A DNA stretch of 64,000 nucleotides from Dongia rigui (GTDB taxonomy: Bacteria > Pseudomonadota > Alphaproteobacteria > Dongiales > Dongiaceae), in the NCBI RefSeq assembly GCF_034044635.1, contig NZ_JAXCLX010000002.1, forward strand, positions 744,001-808,000, written 5' to 3'. This document shows, piece by piece, positions 3,353 to 9,703 of this stretch. How positions within the stretch are numbered: position 1 is the first letter of the stretch; each line of letters begins with the position of its first letter. The notes beneath the pieces are model-generated. The model did not search any database and was not told where the DNA came from. It was given only the letters and a program-made list of their open reading frames with translations. The position numbers and the translations under genes were made by a program.

Positions 3353-4150
3353 ATGGATCCGCAACAGCCAGCACCATCTGCCACCCCCGTTGCCCCGGTT
3401 TCGGGCAATGTCATTGACGGGGTCAATGTCGCCGCCCAGAACGCGGTCGGCATGCCGAGCGCCGCAAGTCATGACCTGTCTGTCTGGACCCTGTTCCTGC
3501 AGGCCGACTGGATCGTCAAAGGCGTGATGCTGTTTCTGCTCGGCGCCTCGATCTGGAGCTGGGCGATCATTTTCGACAAGATCATCCGCCTGCGCCGCCT
3601 GCGGGAACAGGCCCGCCAGTTCGAAGAAGCGTTCTGGTCCGGCGGCTCGCTGGAAGAGCTTTACGACCGCATCTCGAACCGCCCGACCGACCCGATGTCG
3701 TCGATCTTCGTCGCCGCCATGCGCGAATGGCGCCGGTCGGCCGCGAAGGGGCTGCTGGCGTCGGAGCAGTTCCGCGAGAGCCTGCAGGACCGCATCGAGC
3801 GCGTCATGAACATCACGCTCGGCCGCGAGATGGATCAGATCGAGCGCTACATGGGGTATCTGGCCTCGGTCGGTTCGGCAGCCCCATTCATTGGCCTCTT
3901 CGGCACGGTCTGGGGCATCATGAATTCGTTCGCCGCCATCGCCGGTTCGAAGAACACGACGCTGGCGGTGGTCGCCCCGGGTATCGCCGAAGCACTCTTT
4001 GCGACGGCGCTTGGCCTCGTTGCCGCCATTCCTGCGGTCCTTGCCTATAACAAGCTTTCGAGCGACATCAACCGTTACGGCAACCGGCTGGAGGCTTTTG
4101 CCGGCGAGTTCGGTGCCATCCTCTCGCGTCAGCTCGAGGAGAAGCACTAA
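3353..4150 (+). CDS. tolQ: Tol-Pal system proton-channel subunit TolQ
   Basis: TolQ is an inner-membrane protein of the ExbB/MotA class that, with TolR, uses the proton gradient to drive TolA during cell division. Three membrane spans are visible at about residues 54-75, 168-190 and 210-232, with the large cytoplasmic loop between the first two. The last two contain the conserved GLFGTVWGIMNSF and APGIAEALFATALGL motifs. At 265 residues it is longer than E. coli TolQ (230), because of a Pro/Ala-rich N-terminal extension of some 35 residues. The stop overlaps the tolR start by one base (TAATG). Confidence 0.96.
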   Translation: MDPQQPAPSATPVAPVSGNVIDGVNVAAQNAVGMPSAASHDLSVWTLFLQADWIVKGVMLFLLGASIWSWAIIFDKIIRLRRLREQARQFEEAFWSGGSLEELYDRISNRPTDPMSSIFVAAMREWRRSAAKGLLASEQFRESLQDRIERVMNITLGREMDQIERYMGYLASVGSAAPFIGLFGTVWGIMNSFAAIAGSKNTTLAVVAPGIAEALFATALGLVAAIPAVLAYNKLSSDINRYGNRLEAFAGEFGAILSRQLEEKH

Positions 4151-4620
4151 TGGCCGTCAAGCTCGGCGCCGGCGGCCACCCGTCGCGCGGGCATTCGCGG
4201 CGGCGCAAGTTCTCGCCGATGGCCGATATCAACGTGACGCCGATGGTCGACGTCATGCTGGTGCTGCTCATCATCTTCATGGTGACGGCACCGCTGCTGA
4301 CCGTCGGCGTCGAGGTCGAACTCCCCAAGACCAGCGCCGAGGCGATGTCGAACCCAGACGAGCCACTGGTTGTAACCGTCCGCTCCGACAATGCCGTGTT
4401 CCTGCAAGAGACGCAGATCTCCATCGAGGAGGTGGGGCCGCGCCTCAAGGCCATCACCATGAACAAGCCGGACACGATCATTTACGTTCGTGGCGACGCG
4501 ACGGCGAACTGGGACGGCATTGCCCAAGTTTTGGCGGAATTGCAGGCTAATGGTTTCAACAAGGTCGGTATCGTGACCGATACCAAGGCCAGTGGTGAGC
4601 CGGCAAAGAAGTCGAACTGA
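4150..4620 (+). CDS. tolR: Tol-Pal system protein TolR
   Basis: TolR is the ExbD-family partner of TolQ: one membrane span near the N-terminus and a periplasmic domain. The 156-residue protein has the signature ADINVTPMVDVMLVLLIIFM, whose aspartate (D34) is the expected proton-carrying residue. The N-terminus is basic (GHSRRRKFSPM), as expected for a cytoplasmic stub. The ATG overlaps the tolQ stop, suggesting coupled translation and fixed stoichiometry. Confidence 0.96.
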   Translation: MAVKLGAGGHPSRGHSRRRKFSPMADINVTPMVDVMLVLLIIFMVTAPLLTVGVEVELPKTSAEAMSNPDEPLVVTVRSDNAVFLQETQISIEEVGPRLKAITMNKPDTIIYVRGDATANWDGIAQVLAELQANGFNKVGIVTDTKASGEPAKKSN

Positions 4621-4624
4621 CGCT

Positions 4625-5536
4625 ATGAATTTCGTGATGGAAAAGCTGGGATTCGATGCGGAACTCAATCGGGGCTTCGTTGCTTCGGTCTTGTTCCATG
4701 TCGGCCTCTTCCTGGTGGCGTGGTTCGGCCTGCCGCATCTGTTTGAAGACGATCTGATCTACGAACAGGACGGCATCAAAGGCGCGATCATCTCGGAACT
4801 CACCAAGGCACCGAGAGTCGACAAGGTTTCCGACAAGGTGCCGGACAAGCCCAAGAAGCAGAAGGTCGAGCAGCCCAAGAAGGATGCGAAGCCCGCGCCT
4901 GTCAAAGAAAACCCAAAACCTGCTGCGGCACCTCCGCCGCCACAGGTCGAGGAACAGGCGGTCGTCATTCCGGACCAGACCAAGACCGAGCCGGACAAGA
5001 AGGTCGAAAAGAAGCCGGACCAAAAACCCAAGAACCAGAATAAGAATAAGCCGGACGATACCAACAAGAAGAAGCAGAAGCAGCAGGACGAGGACTTTGC
5101 CAAAGTTCTCGCTGGAATTGCTCCGGACCAAGCTGCGGATGCTCCGCCAGAAGAGCCGACGCAAAAGGCGGCGGCTGCCCCGACCGAGGAAACGGAAGGC
5201 CAACGCACGGCGCTTGAAGGCGATGTGGCCGTGAGTGCTACGGATGCCGAGAGCATTAGCCAGCAAATCGGCCGCAACTGGCGGGTCGATGTGGGGGCAC
5301 TCCCCGACCCGTCGCAGTACATGGCTTTTCTGCGGGTGACGTTCGACAGTGCCGGGAATGTGCTGACTGTGGAGTTCCTGGAGCAGAACAGGATGGGTGA
5401 TTCCCGCTATCGCATGGTTGCAGAATCCTGCCGCCGGGCGTTCTTCATCACCAAGCAGATCAAGGCGCCGTCTGGCAAGCCGCTGCCGCCCTCCATTCGA
5501 TTCGGTTGCGATCCGCAATACGCCAATGGTGCTTAA
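4625..5536 (+). CDS. tolA: Tol-Pal system protein TolA
   Basis: TolA bridges the inner membrane (TolQR) to periplasmic TolB. The 303 residues show an N-terminal membrane span (about 16-38), a long Lys/Pro/Glu/Gln-rich stalk (about 70-200) and a compact C-terminal domain with SYRMVAESCRRAFF-like helices and two cysteines, ending RFGCDPQYANGA. I chose the ATG at 4625, five bases after the tolR stop, because the product then begins MNFVMEKLGF just before the span. A longer frame from 4592 would overlap tolR. Low-complexity stalks vary freely between species. Confidence 0.9.
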   Translation: MNFVMEKLGFDAELNRGFVASVLFHVGLFLVAWFGLPHLFEDDLIYEQDGIKGAIISELTKAPRVDKVSDKVPDKPKKQKVEQPKKDAKPAPVKENPKPAAAPPPPQVEEQAVVIPDQTKTEPDKKVEKKPDQKPKNQNKNKPDDTNKKKQKQQDEDFAKVLAGIAPDQAADAPPEEPTQKAAAAPTEETEGQRTALEGDVAVSATDAESISQQIGRNWRVDVGALPDPSQYMAFLRVTFDSAGNVLTVEFLEQNRMGDSRYRMVAESCRRAFFITKQIKAPSGKPLPPSIRFGCDPQYANGA

Positions 5537-5686
5537 ACTGTTCAGTGATGAACCAATGGTCTCGTCGCGCGTTTGTAAGATGTCAAATGTAGTGAATTAG
5601 AGTAGAAGTTAAGAATTAGCGATCAACAGTGGCGCTGTCATTTTGGGCAGGCGCTGGCAGAGATACGAAGACAAGAGGCATAAGCG

Positions 5687-7015
5687 ATGATGCAGAGTTT
5701 GAAGTATTTTGTCCGCGCCGCAGCGGTTAGCTTGGCGCTGGTCGCGGTTCCCTTGGCAGCGTCAGCCGAGCCGACGATCATCATTAAGCCAGGCGCTAAG
5801 CCCGAGCCGATGCCGATCGCCATCCCGGATTTCTTCGGTGGTACCGCAAACGACGGCCAAATGGCGCGCGATCTTGCCGCCGTGATTTCGGCCGACCTTG
5901 AGCGCTCGGGCCTTTTTGCGCCGATCGACAAGAAGGCCTTCATCCAGGATAGCGCATCGCTTCAGCAAGGAACGCCGCGTTTCCAGGATTGGAAGCTGAT
6001 TAATGCTCAGGCGCTCATTTCCGGGAATGTGACGTCGCAGGCAAATGGCCAGGTCAGCGTGCAGTTCCGCCTCTGGGACGTCTATGGCGAACAGCAGATG
6101 ACTGGCTTCCAGTATAATGCCGCCAACAATAACTGGCGCCGTGTGGCCCATAAAATTGCTGACGAGGTATATAAACGGGTCACGGGCGAGGAGGGTTACT
6201 TCGATACCCGCATCGTCTACATCTCGGAGACTGGGCCCAAGCAGAAGCGTATCAAGCGCCTTGCCATCATGGATCAGGACGGCGAGAACCATAAGAACCT
6301 CACCGATGGCGGCACGCTGGTGCTCACGCCGCGCTTCTCGCCGGCGGCACAGGACATCACCTACATGTCCTATTATGGCAACAAGCCGCGCGTTTACCTG
6401 TTCAACATCGACAGCGGCCAGCAGGAAGTTCTGGGCGATTTCCCGGGCATGACGTTCGCGCCGCGCTTCTCGCCGGATGGTTCCAAAGTCATCATGAGCA
6501 TGGCGCAGAACGGCAACACGGATGTTTATGTGATGGATATCCGGACGCGTCGCCAGCAGCGCCTGACCAACACGCCGGGTATCGATACCGGTGCCAGCTA
6601 TGCGCCGGACGGAAAGCAGATCACTTTTGAAAGCGATCGCGGCGGCAGCCAGCAGATCTATGTCATGGGTGCGGATGGCGGCGGGGCGCGCCGCATCAGC
6701 AAGGGGCCGGGGCGTTATGGCACCCCGGTTTGGTCGCCCCGCGGTGATCTCATCGCCTTCACCCGCCAGTACCAGGGCAGCTTCTATATTGGTGTGATGC
6801 GCCCGGACGGATCGGGTGAACGGATGCTGTCGCAAGGCTGGCTGATCGAAGGCCCGACCTGGGCGCCCAACGGTCGTGTTCTGGCCTATTTCAAACAGGA
6901 GCCGTCGGGGAAAACCCAACTGCATTCTATCGATCTGACCGGGTTCAATGAGCGCGTTATGAAAACGCCACTGGACGGGTCAGATCCGGCATGGTCGCCC
7001 TTGCTGCAGGACTAA
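5687..7015 (+). CDS. tolB: Tol-Pal periplasmic propeller protein TolB
   Basis: TolB is a periplasmic protein that binds Pal through its six-bladed propeller and TolA through its extreme mature N-terminus. A signal peptide is clear ([14 protein letters not shown], cleavage before EPTIIIKPG). The mature start [15 protein letters not shown] lines up with the E. coli TolA-binding strand EVRIVIDSGVDS. An alpha/beta N-domain follows, then WD40-like PD40 blades ([40 protein letters not shown]). It is 442 residues long. A second ATG at 5690 is equally possible. The 150-base gap before it may hold a separate promoter. Confidence 0.95.
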
Positions 7016-7047
7016 CTATCGCGATGCTGCTGGGGGAGCGGCGCATA

Positions 7048-8343
7048 GTGGTCGGGCAAACTGGTAGGAGCGCTGCAGTAGCGCTCCTACTTGTCTTGGC
7101 GTTCCCCTTGTTCGCCAAAGCGGATGGGCTTGAGACGCAGTCCATCGCTATCCCAGACTTTCACGGCGAGTCATCGCGGGAACAGTCGCTAGCCGAGGAT
7201 GTCACAAACATCATCCGCAATGATCTGGCAGGCAGCGGGATTTTCACGCAGCCGGATCGATCTGTTTTCCCGCAAGACCCCGAGGAATTGCAGGAGATGC
7301 CGCGTCTGGCGAACTGGCGGAAGATTGGCGCAAAGACGCTGGTCACCGGCAATGTGGACGCGCTCGGGGACGGCGTTGTCGTCCTGCAGTTCCGATTGTG
7401 GGGGTTGGATCCCGAGGTCCAGATAGCCGGTTTCGAGTACCGGGCCTATGCCACCAACATGCGACGTGTCGCCCATAAGATTGCCGACGAGATCTACGAG
7501 CGGCTGACTGGCGAAAGTGGCTATTTCGATACGCGCATTGCCTACGTCGCGGAATCTGGACCGAAGAGCAAGCGCATCAAGAAGATCGCTATCATGGATC
7601 AGGACGGCGCCAATGCTGTCGACCTAACGGACGGCAGTGACCTGGTTCTCACGCCGCGCTTTTCACCGTCAGGGCAGGATCTGCTCTACATGTCCTATTA
7701 CGGGGACAAGCCAAGGGTCTACCTCTTCAACATTGCCACCGGTGAACAGGAGTGGCTGCGCGAATTTCGCAGCATGACCTTCGCGCCGCGCTTTTCGCCT
7801 GATGGGGACCGCATCATTCTCAGCATGGCGGAATCCGGCAACTCGGACATCTACGTCATCGATATCCGCACGCACCGCGTCAAGCGCCTGACCGAGACGG
7901 CCGGGATCGATACGGCACCGAGCTATTCCCCAGATGGTAGCCAGATTGCCTTCGAAAGCGACCGAGACGGCAGTCAGCAGATCTATGCGATGTGGTCTGA
8001 CGGATCAGAGCCAGTACGTATCAGCAAAGGTCCGGGCCGCTACGGGACCCCCGTCTGGTCGCCAAATGGCGACCTCATCGCCTTCACCCGCCAGTACCAG
8101 GGCAGCTTCTATATTGGTGTGATGCGGCCGGACGGGTCGGGGGAGCGGATGCTGTCCCAGGGCTGGCTGATCGAAGGCCCGAGCTGGGCCCCCAATGGCC
8201 GCGTTTTGGTCTATTTCAAGCAGGAGCCGTCGGGCAAAACTGAACTGCATTCTATCGATCTGACCGGCAACAATGAGCGTGTCATGAAAACGCCACTGGA
8301 CGGGTCGGATCCGGCATGGTCGCCCTTGCTTGGGAATCAATAA
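7048..8343 (+). CDS. Second TolB-like periplasmic propeller protein (tandem paralogue)
   Basis: This is a complete second TolB directly behind the first. It has a signal peptide ([17 protein letters not shown]), the N-domain ([36 protein letters not shown]) and the same PD40 blades. Two features set it apart. The mature protein starts [13 protein letters not shown] and lacks the strand that carries the TolA-binding box. The last 100 or so residues are almost identical to TolB, whereas the N-domain is clearly diverged. GTG 7048 is chosen because GGGGGAG sits 9 bases upstream and gives a compact signal peptide; ATG 7024 or ATG 6991 (overlapping tolB) are alternatives. The function is inferred: a Pal-binding TolB variant. 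Confidence 0.88.
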
Positions 8344-8497
8344 TGATCTATGTTCCGCCCCGATTCTAGGATCAACTAGACCCTGGAATACCTTGATTCA
8401 GCGCGGAATTTAATGCGCGGGCAGATCGGCGATCCACAATCGGGGGGTGGTCGGGGGATTTGCTCGGGCGAAGAACGGACAAAAGAGGAAACTAAAA

Positions 8498-9004
8498 ATG
8501 CGTCTTTCGATCTTGTCGGCCCTGGCTGCGGCCGCTCTCCTGGCAGCCTGTTCGTCGGACGTTCCGGTGAACGACGCTGGCGGCGCCGGTTCGGGTAACA
8601 CGGCCTCGACGGCTGACAGCTCCGGCGTTGCCGGTGCGGCAGTCCCGGGTTCGCCGGAGGACTTCAACCAGAATGTCGGTAACACCGTCTATTTCGACCT
8701 CGACAGCTACAGCCTGAGCTCGGACGCTCAGAGCCAGCTGCAGCGTCAGGCCGCTTGGCTGACCCAGTACCCGCAGCGTACGCTGACCGTCGAAGGTCAT
8801 GCTGACGAGCGCGGCACGCGTGAGTACAACCTCGCCCTCGGCGAGCGTCGTGCGAACTCGGTCGCCAACTACCTGGTCGCCCTCGGCGTCGACAAGGCCC
8901 GCTTGAGCACCATCTCTTACGGCAAGGAGCGTCCGCTCTGCACCGAGAGCGATGAGTCCTGCTGGTCGCAGAACCGTCGTGGCGTCAGCGCCATCAACCA
9001 GTAA
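8498..9004 (+). CDS. pal: Peptidoglycan-associated lipoprotein Pal (copy 1)
   Basis: Pal anchors the outer membrane to peptidoglycan and is the partner of TolB. The 168-residue product has a lipoprotein signal (ILSALAAAALLAAC, lipid on C18), a short Ser/Gly/Ala linker and an OmpA-C domain from about residue 60. The diaminopimelate-binding block GHADERGTREYNLALGERRA is intact. A cysteine pair (PLCTESDESCW) near the C-terminus could form a disulfide. AGAGGA sits 8 bases before the chosen ATG; an upstream in-frame extension has no signal-peptide logic. A terminator hairpin follows 33 bases after the stop. Confidence 0.95.
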   Translation: MRLSILSALAAAALLAACSSDVPVNDAGGAGSGNTASTADSSGVAGAAVPGSPEDFNQNVGNTVYFDLDSYSLSSDAQSQLQRQAAWLTQYPQRTLTVEGHADERGTREYNLALGERRANSVANYLVALGVDKARLSTISYGKERPLCTESDESCWSQNRRGVSAINQ

Positions 9005-9037
9005 TCTCGCTGGTTTCAGCAGATAACTGGCGTCATC

Positions 9038-9072
9038 AACGCCGGCCTGGAGAAATCCGGGCCGGCGTTTTT
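9038..9072 (+). terminator. Rho-independent terminator after pal
   Basis: A 10-bp stem (9038-9047 with 9060-9069, AACGCCGGCC/GGCCGGCGTT) and a 12-base loop are followed by a run of five T. It lies between pal and pal2, so pal2 should be transcribed by read-through or from its own promoter. Confidence 0.8.
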
Positions 9073-9181
9073 GTTTGCGCGCAGATTCCCCGTCTTCGCG
9101 CCATTTCCGCCGCAATCCCGCCCTCTTTGGCGTCGAGTTTGTCCGGGTTGGGAACTTTCAACCTCAAGAGGGGACAACTCG

Positions 9182-9703
9182 ATGCAACTTACCAAAGACC
9201 GCAGCCGGCAACTGGCGGCGGTGATGTTTGCAGCACTCATGCTGCAGGCCTGCGATACGACGAACGACACGCAGACGGCTGCCAAGGTCGACAAGCCGGC
9301 CACGGGGATTGGCGATCCCAACAGCCCGATTGTCGATGGCCAACTGACAGCCGAGCAGGAATGGGAGACGAAGGTCGGCAACACGGTTGAGTTCGCAACG
9401 GATGCCTATGACCTCTCCCCGAAAGCGCAGACGACACTCCAGCGCCAGGCGCAATGGTTGCTGCAATACCCGGCCCGCACGGCCGTGGTCGAGGGCCATG
9501 CCGACGAGCGGGGCACTCGGGAATACAATCTCGCACTGGGCGAGCGGCGGGCGCAGTCAGCACAAGCCTATCTGATCGCCCTCGGCGTCGATGCCAGCCG
9601 CCTGCAGACCACGTCTTTCGGCAAGGAACAGCCGCTCTGTGCCGAGGCCAGCGATGATTGCTGGCAGCGGAACCGCCGCGCCGTGACAGCGTTGAATCCC
9701 TGA
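9182..9703 (+). CDS. Second Pal-like OmpA-domain lipoprotein (tandem paralogue)
   Basis: This second Pal has 173 residues. It has a lipoprotein signal (QLAAVMFAALMLQAC, lipid on C24), a linker different from that of Pal, and the same OmpA-C fold. The peptidoglycan-binding block GHADERGTREYNLALGERRA is identical to that of Pal, and the PLC...CW cysteine pair is kept. Elsewhere the two differ at many positions (VEFATDAYDLSPKAQ against VYFDLDSYSLSSDAQ). AGAGGGGA lies about 7 bases before the ATG. It sits behind a terminator, so its expression may be lower than, or separate from, pal. The role is inferred from the fold and context. Confidence 0.9.
   Translation: MQLTKDRSRQLAAVMFAALMLQACDTTNDTQTAAKVDKPATGIGDPNSPIVDGQLTAEQEWETKVGNTVEFATDAYDLSPKAQTTLQRQAQWLLQYPARTAVVEGHADERGTREYNLALGERRAQSAQAYLIALGVDASRLQTTSFGKEQPLCAEASDDCWQRNRRAVTALNP

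Follow-up and report, generated by a model that had tools for sequence, protein, structure and literature searches.

A second TolB without the TolA-binding strand in the tol-pal operon of Dongia rigui

In Escherichia coli, the site that TolB offers to TolA consists of its first 12 mature residues, which are disordered (PMC7066135). A TolB without residues 22-33 no longer binds TolA, Pal does not accumulate at the septum, and the cells show a tol phenotype (PMC7066135). In the TolA complex from Pseudomonas aeruginosa, hydrophobic residues at mature positions 4-6 of TolB are prominent (PMC7066135), and in Pal-bound TolB the two domains enclose the N-terminal tail (PMC7391070). The mobilisation-and-capture model gives TolB two tasks, freeing Pal from the wall and offering TolA a handle for force-driven release (PMC7066135). 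On the Pal side, an E. coli double alanine mutant of H246 and T292 cannot bind Pal, and alanine mutants of the interdomain residues H146, D150, and T165 are tol (PMC7066135). Our search of the accessible literature, which includes PMC7066135, PMC7391070, PMC2821528, PMC8751993, and PMC12204202 and leaves most subscription journals beyond reach, returned no paper on a second or TolA-free TolB.

The window analyzed here, a stretch of 64,000 nucleotides from Dongia rigui (contig NZ_JAXCLX010000002.1, positions 744,001 to 808,000), carries the operon tolQ-tolR-tolA-tolB-tolB2-pal-pal2-cpoB on its forward strand (Table 1). The tolQ gene is one of five MotA/ExbB-type matches in the source genome, and tolA is named from its position and its similarity to the same gene in relatives. 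The canonical TolB is 95% identical to that of a sister genome, G001. TolB2 clears the curated cut-offs of TIGR02800 (343.15 bits), TolB_N (76.3 versus 22.4 bits), and PD40 (100 versus 20.9 bits). It shares with E. coli TolB and the TIGR02800 family the N-domain and propeller, the signal peptide, and the place in the tol-pal operon, and differs from them in lacking the TolA-binding strand and in accompanying a normal copy from which it has diverged.

Table 1. Positions of the features discussed, in window coordinates except for the last three rows, which use locus coordinates.
Feature	Position	Strand	Basis or remark
tolQ	3353-4150	+	
tolR	4150-4620	+	
tolA	4625-5536	+	TIGR02794 24 bits, under cut-off 59.45; no Pfam match
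tolB, canonical copy	5687-7015	+	TIGR02800 459.5 bits, cut-off 343.15
TolA-binding segment of TolB, 16 mature residues	5768-5815	+	phmmer alignment to E. coli TolB N-terminus
tolB2, second TolB, GTG start	7048-8343	+	TIGR02800 423.5 bits; AF2 model
TolB2 signal peptide (predicted)	7048-7122	+	AKA/D cleavage site assigned by eye; lipobox Cys absent
Mature TolB2 N-terminus, DGLETQS, without the strand seen in TolB	7123-7143	+	
IAIPDF of TolB2	7144-7161	+	
TolB2 N-domain, its most diverged part	7144-7533	+	64/130 aligned residues identical to TolB
Junction inside tolB2	8065-8076	+	codon comparison with TolB
tolB2-pal spacer	8344-8497	+	97% identical to G001 tolB-pal spacer
pal	8498-9004	+	TIGR02802 145.8 bits, cut-off 125.35
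Terminator-like stem-loop 3' of pal	9038-9069	+	
pal2	9182-9703	+	TIGR02802 127.2 bits, cut-off 125.35
g459 lipoprotein TolB2 (predicted)	L119 6423-7772	-	
g459 lipoprotein TolB2 (predicted)	L130 4481-5896	+	stop-to-stop range
g459 lipoprotein TolB2 (predicted)	L131 4628-6079	+	stop-to-stop range

In TolB, a signal peptide ending in AASA is followed by 16 residues, the counterpart of the TolA-binding segment of E. coli, and then by IAIPDF. In TolB2 the signal peptide ends in LFAKA and DGLETQS alone separates it from the same IAIPDF, so that mature positions 4-6 are E, T, and Q. The initial annotation had read this arrangement as loss of the TolA-binding strand from TolB2, with the N-terminus of TolB lining up with the E. 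coli strand, and it was right on both points and in its coordinates: phmmer aligns the N-terminus of TolB with that of E. coli TolB, the E. coli matches to TolB2 begin well inside the N-domain, and TIGR02800 aligns from profile position 7 onward in TolB and from position 21 in TolB2. In the AF2 model of mature TolB, residues 1-10 form a free tail (mean pLDDT 37); in that of TolB2 the first strand, residues 6-9, lies almost at the start of the protein. Because the E. coli deletion abolishes TolA binding, loss of TolA coupling in TolB2 is a sound inference, and we infer that TolB2 does not bind TolA. A close described counterpart is the laboratory allele tolB-delta22-33 of E. coli, in which the first mature residues are likewise gone and the domains kept (PMC7066135). 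That allele was the sole TolB of its cell and caused a tol defect, whereas TolB2 has diverged and stands beside a complete TolB. TolB2 therefore resembles a naturally occurring version of that deletion, with the difference that it accompanies an intact protein.

Signal peptidase sites follow the -3/-1 rule, by which we judged the signal peptides by eye. Three in-frame starts precede the hydrophobic core of the TolB2 signal peptide (ATG 6991, ATG 7024, and GTG 7048), all giving the same mature end; TTG 7096 and TTG 7108 fall within the signal peptide, and no candidate start adds residues between it and IAIPDF. We thus found among the in-frame starts no plausible start or cleavage site that would restore the strand. 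The ATG at 6991 overlaps the 3' end of tolB and places 10 residues before the hydrophobic stretch (window 6991-7123). These residues superficially resemble the strand and would suit a TolB2 still coupled to TolA through another surface or through an unusual start and cleavage site. We regard such coupling as highly improbable: the 6991 start would require a non-canonical signal peptide and a second hydrophobic stretch left uncleaved, the best ribosome-binding site among the tolB2 starts, GGGGGAG, lies upstream of GTG 7048, and the TolA site of E. coli is made of N-terminal TolB residues (PMC7066135). A strand-like end produced by the 6991 start with early cleavage is accordingly unlikely, and the 10 residues are probably a chance look-alike of the TolA box.

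The evidence for export of TolB2 is its signal peptide, judged by eye, which resembles that of TolB. Their alignment beats 98.4% of 2000 shuffles, and that of TolB2 with the G001 signal peptide beats 99.2%; for G003, G002, G006, and G005, the fraction of shuffles doing as well is 0.84, 0.78, 0.11, and 0.06, respectively. The two signal peptides in the window look related, so TolB2 seems, by comparison with TolB, to have lost nine residues net immediately downstream of the cleavage site.

The remainder of the TolB fold appears to be kept, as the initial annotation had supposed for the propeller. The AF2 model of mature TolB2 has a mean pLDDT of 87.2 and superposes on the TolB of the TolB/Pal complex 2hqs with a TM score of 0.90, with free TolBs superposing equally well, and its first 19 PDB matches are all TolB chains (query TM 0.86-0.91). 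T292 is retained, as are the interdomain residues H146, D150, and T165, and TolB and TolB2 both have Met at the H246 position, as do G001 and L073; in this numbering H246 and T292 fit K-12 TolB only if shifted by one, and the interdomain residues fit unshifted. Adjoining that position, TolB2 carries R and S in place of P253 and G254, and the loop reads DFPGMTF in TolB and EFRSMTF in TolB2. P253 and G250 are invariant in 24 TolBs of the class, and since loop residues of this kind have changed, the Pal face of TolB2 may be altered. Among positions invariant in 11 TolBs, TolB2 retains the common residue at 33 of 48 N-domain positions, at 73 of 89 in the upstream propeller, and at 56 of 58 in the 3' part, whereas canonical TolBs in leave-one-out controls keep nearly all (lowest, 89 of 98).

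The divergence of TolB2 is far from even along its length. Upstream of about 8068 the codons of tolB and tolB2 are different almost throughout, and past it 18 codons in succession are identical; this sharp junction rules out uniform divergence. The last residues, LLGNQ, together with the spacer to pal match G001 tolB (97% over 171 positions, query 8330-8500), and the 3' end of TolB2 therefore seems to be the ancestral one. With the boundary set at TolB residue 343, nine codons ahead of the junction, dS of this 3' part is 0.31 to G001 tolB versus 0.52 to the TolB of the same genome. TolB2 is thus a chimera, in which ≈340 fast-evolving codons are joined near 8068 to a tolB 3' end and a tolB-pal spacer that both look ancestral. 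TolB and TolB2 share 49% of their residues in the N-domain, and 127 of 181 and 81 of 87 (93%) in the two propeller parts; the corresponding figures for TolB and G003 TolB are 108/130, 164/181, and 80/87. The divergence of the N-domain fits a release of the TolA-facing domain, and the loss of invariant residues is not significantly skewed there relative to the upstream propeller (Fisher p = 0.09).

A recent simple duplication is ruled out, as dS in the upstream part is 1.63 between TolB and TolB2 and only 0.72 between TolB and its G001 counterpart. In the tree the upstream part of TolB2 falls inside the genus clade (98/94, without G005), a placement made uncertain by a very long branch, 1.11 versus 0.062 for TolB; the tree has 28 rows, 11 of 26 class loci having been dropped by the motif filter, and G004, G007, and others are also absent from it. 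GC3 is 0.72 in the upstream part and 0.75 in TolB, and the best match outside the family sample reaches 57% versus 61% within the genus. Together with the tree, these values do not support a distant foreign origin. Among plasmid-borne relatives, 97 records matched, all below 60% identity, and none is a donor. The gene is either an old duplicate lost in the sisters, possibly with recombination through the shared 3' end, or an import from an unsampled relative within the clade.

The same data bear on whether TolB2 is a decaying duplicate, still unbroken but without function. A second full TolB occurs in 1 of the 17 family genomes sampled, that of the window, TolB2 evolves faster than TolB, and it has lost more invariant residues than any canonical TolB, all of which decay would produce. 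Its 431-codon frame has nevertheless stayed open over a synonymous distance exceeding that between species, its fold is predicted with high confidence, and its upstream dN/dS against eight TolBs is 0.20-0.35 rather than 1, a rough figure because dS is near saturation (0.07-0.22 for TolB against seven relatives). We therefore consider decay improbable. A somewhat better case can be made that TolB2 has left Tol-Pal, being exported and folded but binding another periplasmic partner instead of Pal, with the strand lost on leaving. The very long branch, the diverged N-domain, and the changes beside a position tied to Pal binding all accord with such a departure. Against it, tolB2 still lies between tolB and pal in the operon, its product keeps T292 and the interdomain residues, and the 3' part remains close to TolB, though recombination rather than selection may explain the last of these. 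On balance we think a new partner unlikely.

TolB2 has lost the strand while retaining an intact frame, a predicted TolB fold, its operon position, and a dN/dS well below 1. Since the signal peptide, the fold, and most of the propeller are kept, TolB2 is most likely a TolB uncoupled from TolA. Our confidence is evenly poised on the fuller proposal, that it is exported, binds Pal, and acts as a motor-independent Pal holder or mobilizer. As a tandem tolB paralog that retains the signal peptide, two-domain fold, and most of the propeller without the strand gripped by TolA, it would reach the periplasm and bind Pal, perhaps Pal2 too, keeping Pal off the peptidoglycan. Pal held in this way could not be stripped by TolQRA, and TolB2 would thereby adjust the amount of Pal available for redistribution by TolB and TolA. 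It might enlarge the pool of mobile Pal at all sites, or shield Pal that has just been made; if abundant, it would oppose septal capture. Equal production of TolB and of a Pal binder that cannot be stripped should be harmful, unless the latter binds weakly, is scarce, or is regulated. Counting against the proposal are the occurrence of the window's TolB2 in one genome only, the possibly altered Pal face, and the larger loss of invariant residues. If it is true, a natural protein with the Pal-freeing function but without the TolA handle would separate the two functions of TolB and make testable how much of the movement of Pal needs the motor.

The initial annotation had also suggested that TolB2 might serve Pal2, and this was not borne out. 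A second Pal occurs in six of the seven genus genomes, the window's and G001, G002, G003, G004, and G006, and a second TolB in one, so TolB2 is not needed for Pal2; in G002 and G004 tolB is split across contigs, and a collapsed second copy may have gone unseen there. Both paralogs branch after the split from G005, as expected of partners: Pal2 at 82/88 in a Pal tree of 17 rows, from which the motif used left out the second Pals of G003, G004, and G009, and TolB2 inside the 98/94 clade of the TolB tree. With a second TolB found in none of the five other genomes that have Pal2, we hold a dedicated partnership to be very doubtful. Two of nine Pal-profile matches in the source genome, pal and pal2, pass the cut-off. 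The pal2 gene, a duplicate of pal, evolves faster (79% versus 94% identity to G001). It may be transcribed separately from pal, given the terminator-like stem-loop between them, although such sites are weak evidence, with two found in 5500-9300 versus 3.4 expected by chance.

Across the family, the remaining extra TolB matches are weak or are fragments of a tolB interrupted at contig ends, as happens in G002, G004, G007, and G016. The pieces in G002 overlap by 141 identical bases, fitting one gene and arguing against a collapsed second copy there; G004, G007, and G016 might each hold a collapsed copy. Apart from the window's genome, the strand of TolB was seen in 15 family genomes, and in the one remaining, G016, the gene start lies beyond the contig end. 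At the level of the class, a TolB match was obtained in 358 of the 385 genomes sampled, five of which are listed with two: the window's, G129, in which the two are halves of one gene, and G071, G192, and G363, which belong to one family (f56). All six copies of the latter keep the strand, which rules out strand loss as a general habit of second TolBs. TolB was found in 394 of 397 genomes of the phylum sample, three of them with two copies (the window's, G461, and G745), at a threshold of 1e-50, too strict to detect strongly diverged copies. The second TolB of G461 lies in another locus and keeps the strand. Of the distinct TolB N-termini read at their loci, 51 of 54 have the strand right after the signal peptide, the three without it being second copies from genus g459; a narrower motif gives 49 of 52. 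Neither motif catches the window's TolB2, which was judged by hand.

Of 100 genomes scanned in g459, a genus distant from that of the window, 97 have TolB. Three species among them (G745, G791, and G848) carry a second TolB, which lies directly between tolB and pal and lacks the TolA strand. The TIGR02800 match starts at positions 6-9 in the 97 first copies and at 20, 23, and 22 in the second copies. The G745 copy starts MHPQRFETLKRTIYSLVIVALIAGCASN, matching the start of the neighboring pal (67 bases, 87% identical), and its N-terminus, LKRTIYSLVIVALIAGC, resembles the lipoprotein signal of Pal. All three second copies share this lipobox start, so that this TolB2 is predicted to be a lipid-anchored TolB without the TolA handle. 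The residues after the lipobox Cys indicate the destination membrane of a lipoprotein, and the Ala-Ser or Ala-Ala found here suggests the outer membrane. Over 390 residues the second copies are 95-98% identical to one another and 85% identical to the TolB of the same genome, and the latter closeness shows that they arose separately from the TolB2 of the window. Their mutual dN/dS values of 0.05, 0.14, and 0.20 place them under purifying selection.

The g459 proteins thus resemble the window's TolB2 in lying between tolB and pal, in lacking the strand, and in their conserved sequence, and differ from it in their separate origin and their predicted lipid anchor, the window's copy having no lipobox. 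We take them as an independent parallel that supports a TolA-uncoupled role for TolB2. The same N-terminal loss in the pal-adjacent copy of two lineages, in one of them with a lipid anchor instead, suggests selection over accident. Tentatively, and with somewhat less than even confidence, we propose that TolA-uncoupled TolB paralogs recur, with at least two origins between tolB and pal, one soluble and one a lipoprotein, as motor-independent holders that buffer or retain Pal against TolQRA.

Other TolB-like genes were seen in the samples. In the three f56 genomes (L106, L107, L108, L111, L112, and L113) the two TolBs lie on separate contigs, and several of their signal peptides carry an RR pair. 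Apart from its main cluster, G461 has a second tol-like cluster (L121, ≈6100-8500) comprising a pal-like gene, a tolB-like gene with a strand-like N-terminus, and another pal-like gene. Further weak TolB_N matches (E 4e-6 to 9e-4) occur in G009, G011, G013, and G015, in frames of ≈460-950 codons located apart from tolB.
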